A DNA stretch of 64,000 nt from Neonectria sp. B-13. Taxonomy: Eukaryota; Ascomycota; Sordariomycetes; Hypocreales; Nectriaceae. The notes under the pieces are model-generated. The model was not told the origin of the DNA and made no database searches. It worked only from the letters and a program-made list of their open reading frames with translations. Both the position numbers and the translations under genes were made by a program. Within the stretch, counting starts at the first letter, position 1. Each line of letters opens with the position of its first letter. The stretch covers positions 992,001 to 1,056,000 of the forward strand of contig NOKP01000009.1 of the NCBI GenBank assembly GCA_002682825.1, read 5' to 3'. Shown here one piece after another: positions 1,814-63,336 of the stretch.

Positions 1814-3171
1814 ATGGCCACTGCAGAAACATATCGCGAACTCTCCTCCGCAGGCGCCGACAGACTGCAGATATCCGCTTCTATCGAACTCGGCGAAGGT
1901 AAACCGGCTCCCGCTGTGGGGGATGCGCCTGATGGTGGCACCGAAGCATGGCTTGTTGCTGCTGGGGCGGCCTTCATCTCCTTCACAGCACTGGGCTACG
2001 CAAACTCTTTCGGCATCTTTCAGCAGTATTACATGACGCATCAGCTCAAAGGAGAGTCGCCAGACAAGATCGCCTGGATAGGGTCCACTGCGGCCTTCCT
2101 TCAGTTTGCCGCAGGCGCTATAGGAGGTCCGTTGTTTGATCGTTATGGCGCATGGGTATTGCGTTCCCTGGCCGCGTACACGCTCGAGTCGGTCTGCTAA
2201 CACAGAAATAGGTCATCCGACCTGCCGCGGTCCTCTACATGTTTTCGATCATGATGATGAGCCTGTGCCATGAGTACTGGCACTTCATGCTCGCCCAAGG
2301 CGTCCTGATGGGCATCTCCATGGGCCTTCTGACGTTTCCATCCATGGCGGCAGTGTCCCAATACTTTGACAAGAAACGAGCTGCGGCACTGGGCATAGCC
2401 ATATCTGGATCGTCCATCGGCGGTGTCGTCATTCCTATCGCCCTGTCGAAGATGCTGACCAGCTCGTCGCTGGGCTTCGGATGGACCGTCAGAATCGTCG
2501 GATTTGTCATGCTGCCGTTGTTGGTTTTCTCATGCGTGACCGTCAAGTCCCGTCTGCCGCCACGACCTACGACGTTTTTTGTTATGGCGGCTTTCAAAAA
2601 CGTCAACTATATCCTCCTCATCGTCGCCATGTCCTTCCTATTCCTCGGCATGTTCGCTCCGCTTTTCTTCATCCCAACATACGCAGTCTCCAGAGGCATG
2701 GAAGAAACGCTTGCCTCCTACTTGCTCGCCATCGTCAACGCGGCTTCGACGTTTGGCCGCATCATTCCGGGTGTTCTCGCGGACAAGTTCGGACCCTTCA
2801 ACATGCTCTCCGTCGCGGGTCTGGTCAATGGCATCGTCATCATGTGTATGAACAAGGCGGTAACCACTGCAGAGCTGGTGGTTTATTCAGTTGCCTTTGG
2901 ATTTTCTTCGGGCATGATCATCTCAGGAGGCGCCGCAGCGTTTGCCACTTGTCCTAAGGACAAGCGAGACCTTGGGTCCTACTTGGGCATGGGACTGGGA
3001 GTCAGCTCTGTGGCAGTCCTGATAGGGCCTCCGATTAATGGGGCGCTTATTGACAGATACGGAGGGTTTTTGCAAGTGTCCGTCTTCTGTGGTGTCATGT
3101 GTTTGGTTGGTGGCTTCACGGCGGTCTCGAGCAAGCTCGCAACTCCTCAAGGCATTTGGGGGCGGATATGA
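1814..3171 (+). CDS. MFS monocarboxylate-type transporter
   Basis: Predicted plasma-membrane transporter of the monocarboxylate porter (MCT/MCH-like) branch of the major facilitator superfamily, 433 residues. Exon 1 is 1814-2155 and exon 2 is 2212-3171, separated by a 56 bp GT-AG intron with a CTAAC branch site. The first transmembrane segment carries the family's 'AFISFTALGYANSFGIFQQYY' style motif, followed by a DRYG loop after segment 2. Segments rich in Gly and Ala alternate through to a conserved 'GPPINGALIDRYGGF' near the C-terminus. The N-terminal 40 residues are hydrophilic and cytosolic. It is divergent from a Zn2Cys6 regulator and convergent with the esterase downstream. The substrate cannot be read; fungal members move pyruvate, lactate or other organic acids, and others are drug or metabolite carriers in clusters. 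Confidence 0.9.
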
Positions 3172-3274
3172 TTCGTGGGGGCTTCTGTTCACTCGAGACC
3201 TAATGGACTTACGAGGAGATGCAAGCGAAGTCTATTTATTCCGTCCGTATATATTAAATAGCTCATATGTTCTT

Positions 3275-4377
3275 CTACATCTTGCAAAGCAAATTACCGT
3301 AGCACTTGAACATTTTGGTTTCTAAAACCTTGGCCACCTCGGCTGCTACGAGCCTTTCGATTGCGATAGCTGGATGGCCACCATCCCACCACAACTATAG
3401 CCTGGTTAGTTTACGAAATTCTGAGCGTCATGTGATACTGGGGACCTACACATGACAAGCCGTTTCTATTAATACAAGTCGAGTCCAGAGCACCCAAGGC
3501 GCCGGGGTTTTGGACTGCGGTCGAAAATATCCCCGAAGTGTCGACAACTGCGGCTGCTATGTCGGGATGGTTCTTTTTGAATGTTTTGAGATTGGAGCGG
3601 AGAAGATTGTTGTACAGATTAATAGCAGAAACGAGCTTTGCAGACTGTGTATCGTTGAGTGATAACTGGCTGGGCGTCAGGTTCAAAGCTAACGGGTGGT
3701 CAGCGAACATCTCACGCCAACAAGCGGTCTCCAAGAGAACTTACGTGGTACACTCAACAAGACAAACTTCCGCGTCCTGAGGTCATAAAGCCGTTGAAGC
3801 TGTACAAAGTATTGAGCCACGCTCTTCTCTAAGAGGTCGCTGGCATTGTCGAGATAGTACGAGCGACGAACGTCATTGATCCCCATCCAAATCCCAGCGA
3901 CAGTGTTCCATCGCGTCCGGCCTTTCGGGAGTCGCTGAAGGCCGTACGAAGCTGTGAACCGCTGAACTTGGTCGATCAGACTTGCACCACTGCCAGGGAT
4001 CACGCTGGCATCGACGGTTGCGCCACTGCGGGCAAAGTTGTACGATAGGGTCAGCGAGGTGTTGAACTCGGTCACCATGAATCCAACCCAGTTGCGACCG
4101 CCGGACGAAGTAACCCCAGGGAGCCGCGGGTTCCCCAGTGGATTTGCCTTTGACGGCTGAGTGCCTGTGGCGAGGAAGCCGGTCTTGGAAAACGAGTCGC
4201 CGCTTGTCCGTGTCAGTTCGTGGTGAATATGAGATTGTGGTGGTGATAGACGACGAACAATGTGATCAGGTGACTCTTGGGTGGTGCAGTCAGCGCAACG
4301 GCCGTCATTCCTGGGATTATCGTGGCTAAAAGTACTGCAAGAACGACTATGGCCGTCCTTGTCGATGGAAGCAACAT
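3275..4377 (-). CDS. Secreted SGNH hydrolase, CE16-type acetylesterase
   Basis: Predicted secreted esterase that would deacetylate plant polysaccharide side chains, 311 residues in four exons (4377-4259, 4202-3745, 3688-3450, 3394-3275). These sum exactly to 312 codons. The N-terminus is a signal peptide (Leu/Val/Ala-rich, ending TAVA). SGNH blocks are visible: 'ITFGDSFSKTGF' (nucleophile Ser) formed across the first intron, 'GGRNWVGF', 'GIWMGINDVRR' (Gly and Asn of the oxyanion hole), and 'WWDGGHP' in the last exon with the Asp and His of the triad. All introns are GT-AG with CTGAC/CTAAC-like branch sites; the first uses GTTCGT as donor. Tail-to-tail with the upstream transporter. Related GDSL lipases are an alternative substrate class, but block order and spacing favour CE16. 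Confidence 0.87.
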
Positions 4378-58956: not shown

Positions 58957-60253
58957 GATGGCAAACCGAGCGTCCAAATCGTCTAGATGGGGAGATTTGT
59001 CGAACAGAACGATGCTGCTGAATACGGTCGCGGAATTGAGTCGCAGCGAGTCGAATTCTGGCAGTTATTGTCTCAACACGGTCGTGGCGGGAGAAACAGC
59101 GGTTCTTGACTACTGTGCTTCCAAGAGGGCGACGCGCGGCTCAGGTTAAGTAATACGATCCTTCGAGCACATCAGCGGCAAAAACGCCAAATACGTGTAT
59201 CGATGGCCAATGGGAAGATTAAGTTCGCAAATGTCAGTATCATCAACGTCATCATCTGATGTTGGAGTTGTCATCCCGGAGGCTTCGGAATTACCCCGCA
59301 TCACCCCTCGGAGGTCTCGGGTGCCGGACGTCCAGGACAGTAAGCCAAAACGGCCAAGAATGTTAGCGAGCTGTCCGGAGCAGTGGCTGTTTTAGGGGAT
59401 GAGCCGAGCTGTTTACGGTGTTTGTGGGCTGTAAGGGGCTCTGCAATTATTTTGGCTTACGCTTAGAGCAGCACTTACTTATAAGTCCGGTGTAAATGGG
59501 ACGGGAGAGTCAGGCGCAAGTGAAGATACTTGGAGCAAAGTATCTACATTCCTAGGTTTCGCTCTCGTGCAAACGCTCGCAAAGATGAAACACAGTACCA
59601 GGCGGAAACCGTCCACCAAATCTTCAGAGAGTCGCCAAGCCAAAATGGACCAGCAAAGGGGAATGCAGGGTGCTGCATCGCTCCATGTCAGATCTCAACC
59701 TCCAATCAATGAGTAACTCTTAGTTGTCAAGGTAGCACAAGATGTTTCAGGTATTTCACATGAAAGACGGTCGATAGGCTATAGATTTACTCGTCCAGAT
59801 GTCATCAACTGCTGGCACCAACCAGCCAAGAGGAATCTTACCCTCGAGCAGATCGACATTCGGAGCGGATCCGACTCGCCGGGTGTGACTATGCACTCAC
59901 TTCTTCTCTTAAGTCATTTTATTCGATTCACCGTTTCCATTCATTTGAGATGCTCCAGCTTCTTGGTGCACATAAGAACCAAGTGGTGTCTGTGATACAT
60001 GAACTGTGGCTGCATGGGATGGCAGTCGCTGCTGCCTAAAATGTCAGACCTTCATAGCCGAGCGCTAGCTTATTTTAGTTATGCAGAAAGCACGCTGTAT
60101 ATTGCAGCTATTCTAATACACCCTAGCGTTCATCATCAGATGTAAACAATCGCTCTCTCGTTTACGGTTGAATGGCGGCATAAGACTGTATTAACATTCG
60201 TTTACTAAGGCTTATAGAGTAAAGGCTTGGGCGAATTCACTGCCAACTTTGCC
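58957..60253. other. Intergenic, divergent region fasciclin/sirtuin
   Basis: 1.3 kb between divergent starts. Short frames at 59195-59395 and 59530-59712 lack support. Nothing else was recognised. Confidence 0.45.
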
Positions 60254-61575
60254 ATGGCTTCCTCTGCTCCGAAGATTGCTGAAGCTGAAAAGCACGATGC
60301 GCCTAGCACACTCGCCCGCAAAGCCAGAGCCTTGGCGAGCCTGATAAAGGAGAGTAAACACTTCGTCGTTTTCACCGGTGCAGGCATCTCTACTTCTGCC
60401 GGTAAGCCTCACTTTCCGAGCGAAATTCACTCGTCTTACTCATTTCACGCAGGTATTCCTGACTTCCGTGGCCCCGAGGGTGTTTGGACGTTACGCGCCC
60501 AAGGTAGACAATCCACCGCAAAGTCCGTGAGCACATTGCAAGCCATTCCAACACCCACGCACATGGCACTGCTCGAACTGCAGAACCGGGGCCTGTTGAA
60601 GTACCTGATCAGCCAAAACTGCGACGGTCTACATCGAAGAAGCGGGATATTGCCTGTAAGTATACGAGATGTGATGAACAGCAATCTTAGATGCCTACTA
60701 AGCCCAAAGACAGGACAACATATCGGAGCTTCACGGTAATAACAACCGTGAATGCTGCAAAGGTTGTGGGAAAGAGTACCTTCGCGGTATAGAAACCCTC
60801 TCCTAATGCTTCAAATTTCCTATTCTCATATGTCACAGACTTCCGAGCTGTCGCCACCTACGAAAAGACCGTTCACGATCATCGCACAGGGCGGAAATGC
60901 GCTCGTTGCGGAGAACCCCTTCACGACACCATCATCAACTTTGGAGAGTCGTTGCCCAAGCAGCCTCTCCAACGCGCCTTCGATAACGCTGAAAATGCCG
61001 ACCTTTGCCTCGTTCTTGGGTCATCACTCACAGTCACTCCGGCCAACGAAATCCCCGAAGTCGTCGGTCGAAGAAAGGGTGCCAAGCTGGCCATCTGCAA
61101 CCTCCAGAAGACGCCGCTGGACAAGCTATCCGAGCTGCGCATTCATTCCGAGGCTGACACCTTGATGATTGCGGTGATGGAAAATCTTGATATCCCGATC
61201 CCGCAATTCGTCCTCCATCGTCGTCTCGTCGTCCAGCTCAAAAGCCAGGATGATAATCGGCATGAACTGACTGTGGGCGGTGTCGACGTGGACGGCACAC
61301 CAGTCACCTTTCTTCAATCGGTAAAGCTCGAGAATAACAGAAGGGTCATCCGGAATGAGCCATTTGCCATTCAGTTTCGCGGAACGCTTGAGCCTGGACT
61401 GGAGTTCAAGCTCGAGCTGGAATTCATGGGACACTACGGCGAGCCTAATTTGAAACTCGTTCATCAGTACAATGGGGTGCAGGATTCAGAGGGCTTATAT
61501 CACCTTGATTATAACCCTTACACTGGGGAGTGGAAGGCCGTCCAAGAAATTGTTCTGGATGATTCTGTGCTTTAG
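60254..61575 (+). CDS. NAD-dependent deacylase, SIRT6-like (class IV sirtuin)
   Basis: Sirtuin in four exons; introns at about 60401-60460, 60657-60720 and 60790-60839 each rejoin in frame. NAD-binding motifs are '[26 protein letters not shown]' split by intron 1. Others are '[13 protein letters not shown]' (the usual Val/Ile of QNVDGLH is Cys here) and '[22 protein letters not shown]', with the catalytic His and the first two Zn cysteines. '[22 protein letters not shown]' has the second Zn pair, and '[20 protein letters not shown]' follows. The order and the 'HDTIINFGE' segment match class IV (SIRT6/7) enzymes acting on nuclear histones. A C-terminal extension of about 120 residues (from '[12 protein letters not shown]') is beta-rich and typical of fungal members. 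ATG 60254 is the first in frame. Confidence 0.92.
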
Positions 61576-61848: not shown

Positions 61849-63336
61849 TCAGTACTCAGTAACATCGGTCACGTTGTAGAATCCATCATCTCGTTCATCC
61901 GGATTTATGATCCTTCCCGTGGCAAACTTATGCGCCCATTCAATCGCTCGAGCCTTGAATAACTCCTTGTCCGATGTCCAATTCAAGGGCATTTCGGTCT
62001 CAATCGGGTTATCCCAGGCTGGTTCGTCAAGCAGTGACGCCACACTGATCAGCAATTTTTCCAGAGTCAACGACGGTGACCACGAGCCGTCATCAAGTGT
62101 CCTGGAAAGGGAGCTTATGCAAACAGCACCGTATCTATCGATGTTAGGATGAAATATCATTGTCAGAAACCACACCTGGGGCGGATGAAATGGATATCCC
62201 CCAGTGACATTGAATCGAACATGGAAAATACCCCCTTCGTACGGGGTGCCCTCTGGGCCGCAGAAAGTACCGAGGAATTTGTCCAAATGCGATTCACTTA
62301 TGGGCGTGATGGTAAACCATCCATTCGGGGTTGTTTGATCAGTCCAGGTTTTCATTTCCATCTTGATACGCCTCCTGGCCCATTTCCCGGGCTCATAAGG
62401 TTCATTAGTGACCAAAGGCTCAGGCGGCAACCCAGCCAAAATGTATTTGCAAACTTGACGATTGGTCGCTTCAATATCCGAGAACAATAAAGTCCGTACA
62501 TTCACACCCTCCTCGTCTCGTGAAGTTTGGACTTCTATGTGTGACGAAGGATGCGATTCGGCAGTCATGAAAGTCGCCGATGTAGTACTGGACGTGTCGA
62601 TTGTCCGGGCATGAATCAAGCTGAGGCGAATACTTGCGGCATCGGATATGACGGTTTTCTCCACCACAGAGCTCTTCTCGATTCTGTAAAGTCCATCTTC
62701 GCTGACCTCTGCTACAGCTTCAGCTGCATACTGCTCTATCGCTTTGGCGGCTTGAATATCGCGAGTCAACTTGTCGAGGTCGTCGACAAGCGCCACAATT
62801 TGGGTAAGCAAAGCAGTCGCCTTCTTCTCATCCCGAATGGACCATTTCGCTTTCTTCCAGAACGAGGTGGTATCTTGCTGTCGCATTGATTGACGCTCTC
62901 TGCGTACAACGGCTTGTAACCGGATGTATCTGCTTCTGAATACTGCGGAAGGTGGATTTCTTTGTATGGAGGACGAGTCGTTGTCGAATAGATTTCCCAG
63001 TGCAGGGGCCTGTTGCTGGTGAATCTTGAACCCATACTGTTGAACCAAACGGTCGGTGTTGGAGAAGAGAAGAACAATCTGCTGGAGCGTGTCGGTAATT
63101 TGTCGGGCTCGCCAAGTTGGGGAATTGAGACTGGTCGTGTATCCCTCTGATGAGAAAAACCCCAGCCTCTCGGCCCATATCAGGAAGATGGCACGCTGGT
63201 TGTCCAGCCTCGTACTGAAGCAGTGAAAATTCTCTTCATGGTCCCGGCCGCTGTCAACGAACTCCCATGCCTCCAGGGCGGTTCTGAAGAGGCCTGCAAG
63301 CCCAATGATCCCGATGGCGAGGCCAACTCCTTCCAT
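61849..63336 (-). CDS. HeLo domain fused to ubiquitin-conjugating (E2) domain
   Basis: Intronless 495-residue protein with an unusual domain pairing. Residues 1 to about 210 match the HeLo (prion-inhibition and propagation) domain of fungal cell-death proteins. They show a hydrophobic N-terminus 'GVGLAIGIIGLAGLF', then 'ALEAWEFVDSGRDHEENFHCFSTRLDNQRA' in part, 'IVLLFSNTDRLVQQYG' and 'FWKKAKWSIRDEKKATALLTQIVALVDDLDKL'. After a polar linker (about 211-320), residues about 322-475 form a UBC fold: 'PEGTPYEGGIFHVRF', 'YPFHPPQVWF', 'FHPNIDRYGAVCISSL' with the HPN motif at 396-398 and the active-site Cys at 406, and 'SPSLTLEKLLISVASLLDEP'. The E2 active site looks intact. HeLo domains insert in membranes when activated, so this may couple membrane targeting or cell death to ubiquitin transfer (inference). 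Confidence 0.9.
   Translation of the reverse strand: MEGVGLAIGIIGLAGLFRTALEAWEFVDSGRDHEENFHCFSTRLDNQRAIFLIWAERLGFFSSEGYTTSLNSPTWRARQITDTLQQIVLLFSNTDRLVQQYGFKIHQQQAPALGNLFDNDSSSIQRNPPSAVFRSRYIRLQAVVRRERQSMRQQDTTSFWKKAKWSIRDEKKATALLTQIVALVDDLDKLTRDIQAAKAIEQYAAEAVAEVSEDGLYRIEKSSVVEKTVISDAASIRLSLIHARTIDTSSTTSATFMTAESHPSSHIEVQTSRDEEGVNVRTLLFSDIEATNRQVCKYILAGLPPEPLVTNEPYEPGKWARRRIKMEMKTWTDQTTPNGWFTITPISESHLDKFLGTFCGPEGTPYEGGIFHVRFNVTGGYPFHPPQVWFLTMIFHPNIDRYGAVCISSLSRTLDDGSWSPSLTLEKLLISVASLLDEPAWDNPIETEMPLNWTSDKELFKARAIEWAHKFATGRIINPDERDDGFYNVTDVTEY

Follow-up and report, generated by a model that had tools for sequence, protein, structure and literature searches.

The window analysed here (64,000 nucleotides of Neonectria sp. 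B-13, positions 992001-1056000 of a contig designated C114 in an assembly of 61 Mb) carries a gene in which a HeLo domain is joined, within one reading frame, to a ubiquitin-conjugating (UBC or E2) domain. The gene and its parts are as follows:

61849..63336, minus strand: HeLo-UBC gene, a single open reading frame of 495 codons plus stop, with an ATG start and no internal stop
62701..63324, minus strand: HeLo domain (PF14479), residues 5-212; Pfam E 2.7e-37; matched by the HET-s chains 2wvn, 2wvo and 2wvq
63274..63330, minus strand: N-terminal hydrophobic segment, residues 3-21, the most hydrophobic stretch of the protein
62623..62646, minus strand: hinge motif SDAASIRL, residues 231-238, conserved, at the junction of HeLo domain and linker
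62560..62574, minus strand: second linker motif TFMTA, residues 255-259, conserved
61936..62370, minus strand: UBC/E2 domain (PF00179), residues 323-467; Pfam E 2.1e-34; matched by UBE2D2 chain 6ttu_D
62143..62151, minus strand: HPN motif, residues 396-398
62119..62121, minus strand: codon of the catalytic cysteine, Cys406

The original prediction, made by inspection of the letters, was that one uninterrupted frame joins a HeLo domain to an E2 domain with an HPN motif at residues 396-398 and an active-site cysteine at 406. The frame is indeed continuous, the residues lie at those positions in its translation, and both Pfam profiles match far above their cut-offs: HeLo with 129 bits against 23.2 (profile positions 1-197 of 205), and UQ_con with 118.6 bits against 27 (positions 1-139 of 140). 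A third Pfam match, to DUF848, falls below its own cut-off. The Pfam scan found no NACHT, NB-ARC or repeat domain in the protein, and no known prion domain is among its Pfam matches. PADLOC returned no match, and the single NCBIfam match lies far below cut-off.

The same gene is found again as an exact inverted copy at 520857-522341 of contig C114, with 5001 of 5001 bases identical around the two. Similarly, 3 kb of the window recurs in inverted orientation at 580202-583202, and the centre of the contig consists of 100 N flanked by identical arms of 4849 bases. C114 consists of one sequence followed by the reverse complement of itself, very likely an artefact of scaffolding by which genes are counted twice. 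Given such a join across the 100 N, the inverted copy is most likely one gene shown twice. Matches on another contig, C72, also pair up about the contig midpoint.

Downstream of the HeLo-UBC gene, on the opposite strand and pointing towards it, lies an open reading frame with a SIR2 match (60227-60736, E 2.2e-11). Six further open reading frames of the window, between 36 and 59 kb, were scanned, and these match five oxidoreductase-type families and fasciclin. Outside the window, about 6 kb upstream of the gene start, is an open reading frame with a HET domain (L040:5374-6321, E 1.1e-19), again a gene of the incompatibility type. With 150 of 216 candidates scored and mirror copies included, HET matches in the assembly number at least 151, and a lone HET neighbour is for this reason weak evidence.

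A family of HeLo-UBC proteins

A search of 5.8 billion proteins returned at least 31 homologues, at least 26 of which carry both HeLo and UBC domains, and a search with the alignment of these homologues returned at least 35 proteins, at least 25 of them two-domain and one of these new (P0032). All of these counts are lower bounds, since the 8000 candidates sharing most words were scored in both searches. When residues 1-315 served as the query, 10 proteins were recovered, namely nine two-domain proteins and P0017 (see below). The two-domain proteins come from Cylindrodendrum hubeiense (P0001, P0010 and P0022), Ilyonectria, Thozetella, Hypoxylon, Fusarium sarcochroum, F. austroafricanum, Fusarium sp. 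VM40 and Elasticomyces elasticus; the last is the sole Dothideomycete among the sources, the rest being Sordariomycetes. The homologues share their start residues with the window protein (alignment A1). Because both domains score far above cut-off and occur together in 26 of the 31 homologues, a chance pairing is excluded, and the possibility of a one-off fusion or annotation artefact was rejected on the same 26 of 31. Judged from sequence, HeLo-UBC proteins are a real and conserved family, and apparently one undescribed so far.

The same genome contains a second, divergent HeLo-UBC gene (C39:476681-478424), whose HeLo match is in two pieces 46 bases apart, as if by an intron, and whose E2 half retains the HPN motif and the catalytic cysteine. 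This copy is 78% identical in the HeLo domain and 82% identical in the UBC domain to P0022 of Cylindrodendrum, and its E2 half is 79% identical to that of P0028 from Ilyonectria; such E2 identities would probably place the genome in the Nectriaceae, in the Cylindrodendrum lineage. The window protein and P0001 of Cylindrodendrum, which is possibly not its orthologue, share 65% identity in the HeLo domain and 58% in the UBC domain. The window protein, the C39 copy and 27 homologues make up the set of 29 rows to which the counts below refer.

One homologue, P0017 of Fusarium longipes, has an IBR stretch followed by a HeLo domain with an apparent start of its own, and this HeLo domain groups inside the HeLo-UBC clade. 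P0017 is probably a merged gene model; otherwise it would be an E3-HeLo fusion. The idea of a neighbouring RBR-type E3 gene, taken from P0017, was rejected for the window gene, as all 20 IBR matches of the genome lie on contigs other than C114. P0017 does suggest that merged annotation occurs in this family, and one might ask whether the window gene is likewise two adjacent genes read as one. However, its frame is open throughout with no stop, and the same junction with the same hinge motif recurs across several genera, so that this explanation is exceedingly improbable.

An adjacent NLR gene, as in the HET-S/NWD2 pair, is a mark of HET-S-like executioners, and such a neighbour was rejected for HeLo-UBC: among the matches listed, no NLR-type domain (scored candidates: 91 of 115 for NACHT, 150 of 227 for NPHP3_N and all 43 for NB-ARC) lies within 100 kb of either HeLo-UBC gene. 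The closest NPHP3_N to the window gene among these matches is about 104 kb away, and the closest NACHT or NPHP3_N to the C39 copy about 108 kb away. With all 43 NB-ARC candidates scored, that domain has no match on C114 and none on C39 nearer than about 300 kb.

The HeLo domain and the linker

At the level of sequence, three solved HET-s entries (2wvn, 2wvo and 2wvq) match the HeLo half, 2wvn best of all (E 4e-12, residues 2-242). The top 19-residue hydropathy window of the protein starts at residue 3 and reaches 1.78 on the Kyte-Doolittle scale, against 0.98 beyond residue 45, which agrees with the hydrophobic N-terminus that had been noted at the outset. In 19 of the 23 rows that have an N-terminus, the segment is similarly strong (1.57 or more), and it is weak in the other four (P0005, P0010, P0012 and P0020); the N-terminus is missing from the sequence used in the remaining 6 of the 29 rows. 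HeLo domains are nearly always N-terminal, an arrangement that has been read as fitting membrane insertion (PMC3531502, in the part available). The single change H33P abolishes the toxicity of HET-S, according to the accessible portions of PMC3531502 and PMC10197012, and none of the 23 rows has proline at the position aligned to HET-S residue 33, the pairing being made through the HET-s chains. The original prediction spoke of a membrane-directed or death-linked device for ubiquitin transfer; of this, the membrane-directed part gains qualified support from the HET-s homology and the hydrophobic N-terminus, both of them features of the sequence, and the death-linked device is an inference.

The columns between the HeLo and E2 domains are mostly variable in the 29 rows, with two short conserved motifs. 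The first, at the end of the HeLo domain, has S231, A234 and S235 invariant in all 29 rows and R237 in 28; the window protein, with SDAASIR at 231, thus has the two domains with the S-x-A-A-S-x-R hinge between them. A hinge-like stretch also closes the HET-s HeLo chain in the alignment, and SDAAS is present in one of 12 other HeLo open reading frames of the genome, L045, which is without an E2 domain; looser matches occur in two more (L044 and L050). The similar stretch in HET-s and the presence of the motif in the E2-less L045 argue that SDAAS is a hinge of the HeLo domain. The second motif has T258 in 28 and A259 in 26 of the 29 rows, and the pattern [ST][FYW]xTA is found in 25 of the 29 family rows versus none of the 12 other HeLo open reading frames of the genome. 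This second pattern may be specific to HeLo-UBC proteins.

The place of the HET-S prion-forming domain is thus taken by a linker with these two motifs and then the E2 domain. An amyloid motif shared with another gene was also considered and rejected: a search of the genome with the linker returned the gene itself twice (once as the mirror copy), and the other matches were weak (best E 0.05). A motif of a novel kind may still be present.

The ubiquitin-conjugating domain

The closest solved structures to the E2 half, by sequence, are UBE2D (Ubc4/5-type) enzymes, with UBE2D2 chain 6ttu_D at E 7.3e-27, and Cys406 aligns to the cysteine region of UBE2D. H396 and P397 are present in all 29 rows and N398 in 28. 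Cys406 is present in 27, being replaced by tyrosine in P0005 and by serine in P0010. The HPN motif, Cys406 and the UBC profile lead to the prediction that the window protein has a catalytic-type E2. The two members without the cysteine imply that catalysis is dispensable in some copies.

The domain also departs from UBE2D in several respects. Two residues after the cysteine, at position 408, 27 of the 29 rows have aspartate, and the window protein and P0001 have serine. Compared with a Ubc4-like fragment of the genome, the window protein, again near the active centre, has Ala440 in place of Asn and Asn443 in place of Asp; in each case the residue of the fragment is found in 18 of the 29 rows. 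Phe383 and Pro421, at positions which we take from UBE2D to be E3 contacts, are kept in 14 and 12 of the 29 rows, respectively. Ala440, Asn443 and the weak conservation of these presumed contacts speak against a fully canonical enzyme. Finally, in the alignment to a UBE2D-type structure, an insertion of five residues follows the active site.

The two rows that lack the cysteine both belong to the four with a weak N-terminus (Fisher p 0.024), a value that comes from two rows of one clade and a threshold chosen after the values were seen. The link between cysteine loss and a weak N-terminal segment is thus suggestive, and the two together may represent joint decay.

The Cys-less copies raise the question of whether the E2-like half could be a bait: as a decoy, it would detect interference with the ubiquitin system, and its modification or cleavage would release the HeLo killer. 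The divergence of the E2 half and the lost cysteine of P0005 and P0010 would suit such a role, as would the consideration that a HeLo killer needs a sensor when no NLR-type candidate is nearby among the matches listed. However, a decoy would not need the cysteine, the HPN motif and the E2 core that most rows keep, and the weak N-terminal segment of both Cys-less copies also counts against it. On this evidence the bait explanation seems quite unlikely.

Other HeLo genes and the origin of the fusion

The genome has 26 HeLo matches, a figure that contains five mirror pairs and counts the C39 copy as two pieces. Removal of the window gene, the mirrors and the C39 copy leaves 18 HeLo places as a control set, and the HeLo open reading frame was scanned in 17 of these (L053 was left out), along with three neighbouring frames. 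None of the 17 has a UQ_con match, one (L048) has STAND domains in frame with HeLo, and 14 have HeLo alone in frame, although introns may hide more. The open reading frames adjoining HeLo in L055 and L060 carry NPHP3_N and ankyrin repeats, the NPHP3_N of L060 being below cut-off. L045 (L045:1327-3135) is a frame of 603 amino acids with HeLo and the SDAAS hinge and without a recognized C-terminal domain; among the other HeLo domains of the genome, that of L045 matches the window protein best. In L056, a partial HeLo (profile positions 1-86) lies beside an open reading frame for a DDE transposase (L056:1372-2022, 2402-3772), possibly reflecting damage to a HeLo gene by a mobile element. In two places HeLo shares a frame with DUF7580, a further HeLo partner about which little is known (L049:1309-3189, and L051:1056-2879 just below cut-off).

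Partners of unknown role such as DUF7580 are compatible with HeLo acting as a plain anchor, which would hold a specialized E2 at a membrane or scaffold for housekeeping or trafficking and have no part in cell death. The good conservation of the C39 copy between genera is what one would expect of such a steady function. However, conservation against Cylindrodendrum hubeiense is lower for the window copy, with the reservation that the orthology of P0001 is uncertain. Canonical E2s are usually far better conserved than the window copy is against P0001. In addition, the functions shown so far for HeLo domains, in the sections of PMC12881547 and PMC3531502 drawn upon, are cell death and incompatibility. 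A plain anchor is accordingly regarded as improbable, if still worth weighing.

In a tree of the UBC domains (29 family rows and eight E2 fragments from this genome), a branch with support of 85/93 has the 29 family rows all on the same side, and the canonical fragment that joins nearest to the family branch is L016, labelled Ubc4-like from its resemblance to UBE2D2. The tree of HeLo domains (44 rows) does not unite the HeLo-UBC rows, with four label changes and several very long branches; in particular, P0020 groups with the UBC-less L045 (support 95/94), which counts against a single origin. When 30 rows (P0017 counted in) were held as one clade, a single clade was not rejected (p-AU 0.42). 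Together with the UBC tree, this makes one fusion, or few, the simplest reading of how the HeLo-UBC genes arose.

Possible mechanisms

The leading interpretation, to which somewhat less than an even chance is given, is that the combination of a HET-S-type HeLo domain with a ubiquitin-conjugating enzyme is a membrane-anchored ubiquitin writer that takes part in regulated cell death or helps to control it. In the resting state, the protein would be soluble, with its hydrophobic helix buried among the other HeLo helices. The helix could be released by stress, by recognition of non-self or when something binds the linker or the E2 domain, and the freed protein would then insert in a membrane or cluster there. 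The Ubc4/5-like E2, with an E3 partner, would ubiquitylate proteins at the membrane, plausibly including the HeLo assembly itself. The anatomy of the protein, with its hydrophobic N-terminus, hinge, variable linker and catalytic-type E2, would suit such a transfer of ubiquitin at a membrane upon HeLo release. Counting against this interpretation are the departures from the Ubc4-like fragment near the active centre, the two Cys-less members and, among the matches listed, the lack of an NLR-type domain within 100 kb of either gene. Whether the E2 would act as output, brake or sensor is a choice that the sequence does not decide.

A connection between ubiquitin and fungal incompatibility has some precedent. 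In the sections of PMC3689799 drawn upon, domains of ubiquitin-based degradation are over-represented among the genes that incompatibility induces in both Podospora and Neurospora, and seven of nine Podospora HeLo genes are induced. The nearest animal parallel is MLKL, in which K63-linked ubiquitin on lysines of the HeLo domain directs MLKL to endosomes and not to the plasma membrane (PMC8816944, in the portion available).

The MLKL case also favours a rather different role, in which the HeLo domain is a killer and the E2 is its built-in brake: ubiquitylation of its own or a neighbouring HeLo domain would have stray assemblies degraded or diverted, and death would follow only once transfer is blocked. 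MLKL is diverted from its death function by ubiquitylation of its HeLo domain, the E2 occupies the place of the HET-S activation domain, and one HeLo lysine is well conserved, K172 (lysine in 23 of the 29 rows and arginine in three). On the other side, the remaining HeLo lysines are poorly conserved in the 29 rows, and the Cys-less copies with their weak N-terminal segment are equally compatible with a brake, with a writer and with mere decay. A brake is therefore considered a minority possibility.

Given the precedent of K63 chains on MLKL, self-ubiquitylation is the boldest version open to test. The protein would be a self-marking executioner, a pore-forming HeLo with its own E2 in cis, and its assembly at a membrane would start the local transfer of ubiquitin onto the protein and whatever surrounds it. 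Whether the cell dies would then depend on ubiquitin and not on amyloid templating or an NLR, and copies with neither the cysteine nor a strong membrane segment would serve as inactive partners, in a role comparable to that of HET-s. This full version is speculative and on the whole doubtful.

Relation to known systems

The window protein shares with HET-S/HET-s of Podospora anserina the HeLo domain, the hydrophobic N-terminus and the hinge-like stretch at the HeLo end, but has a linker and a catalytic-type E2 where those proteins have a prion-forming domain. It likewise shares an N-terminal HeLo with the fungal HeLo and HeLo-like NLRs (STAND proteins), but not their NACHT, NB-ARC or repeats. 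The Ubc4/Ubc5 (UBE2D) enzymes, its best structural matches by sequence, have the same E2 core, HPN motif and catalytic cysteine; the window protein differs from them in the added N-terminal HeLo and linker, in Ser408 for Asp and in the insertion of five residues. Among cell-death regulators, BIRC6/Apollon, an apoptosis inhibitor, has an E2 domain within a multidomain protein, with a BIR domain, caspase control and no HeLo; the two proteins are alike in placing an E2 in a multidomain regulator, of death in BIRC6 and putatively so here, and differ in having BIR and HeLo, respectively. Mammalian MLKL resembles the window protein in that ubiquitin is functionally linked to a HeLo-type (4HB) killer domain (PMC8816944, as excerpted). 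However, the ligase ITCH is a separate protein in that system, and the E2 of the window protein is fused in cis.

The original prediction came with the remark that its author knew of no described system of this kind, and no description of a HeLo domain paired with a ubiquitin-conjugating domain was found in the open-licence literature. The pairing is not treated in the available parts of PMC3689799, PMC9815663 and PMC8816944; the word ubiquitin is absent from PMC12881547, PMC3321046, PMC4986451 and PMC10197012, and PMC12258605 has it a single time, among its references. Both domain labels are already present on the database records of homologues, where they were placed by machine annotation.

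The HeLo and 4HB killer domains of fungi, plants and animals are related to one another, and the animal representative, MLKL, is steered by ubiquitin. A natural cis fusion, found in several genera of filamentous fungi and in both catalytic-type and Cys-less versions, offers a simple and testable system for the ubiquitin control of membrane-attacking death proteins. HeLo-UBC would add to the fungal HeLo proteins a branch for which no amyloid domain and no NLR partner were found, and the family may connect the attachment of ubiquitin with cell death that the fungus brings upon itself.
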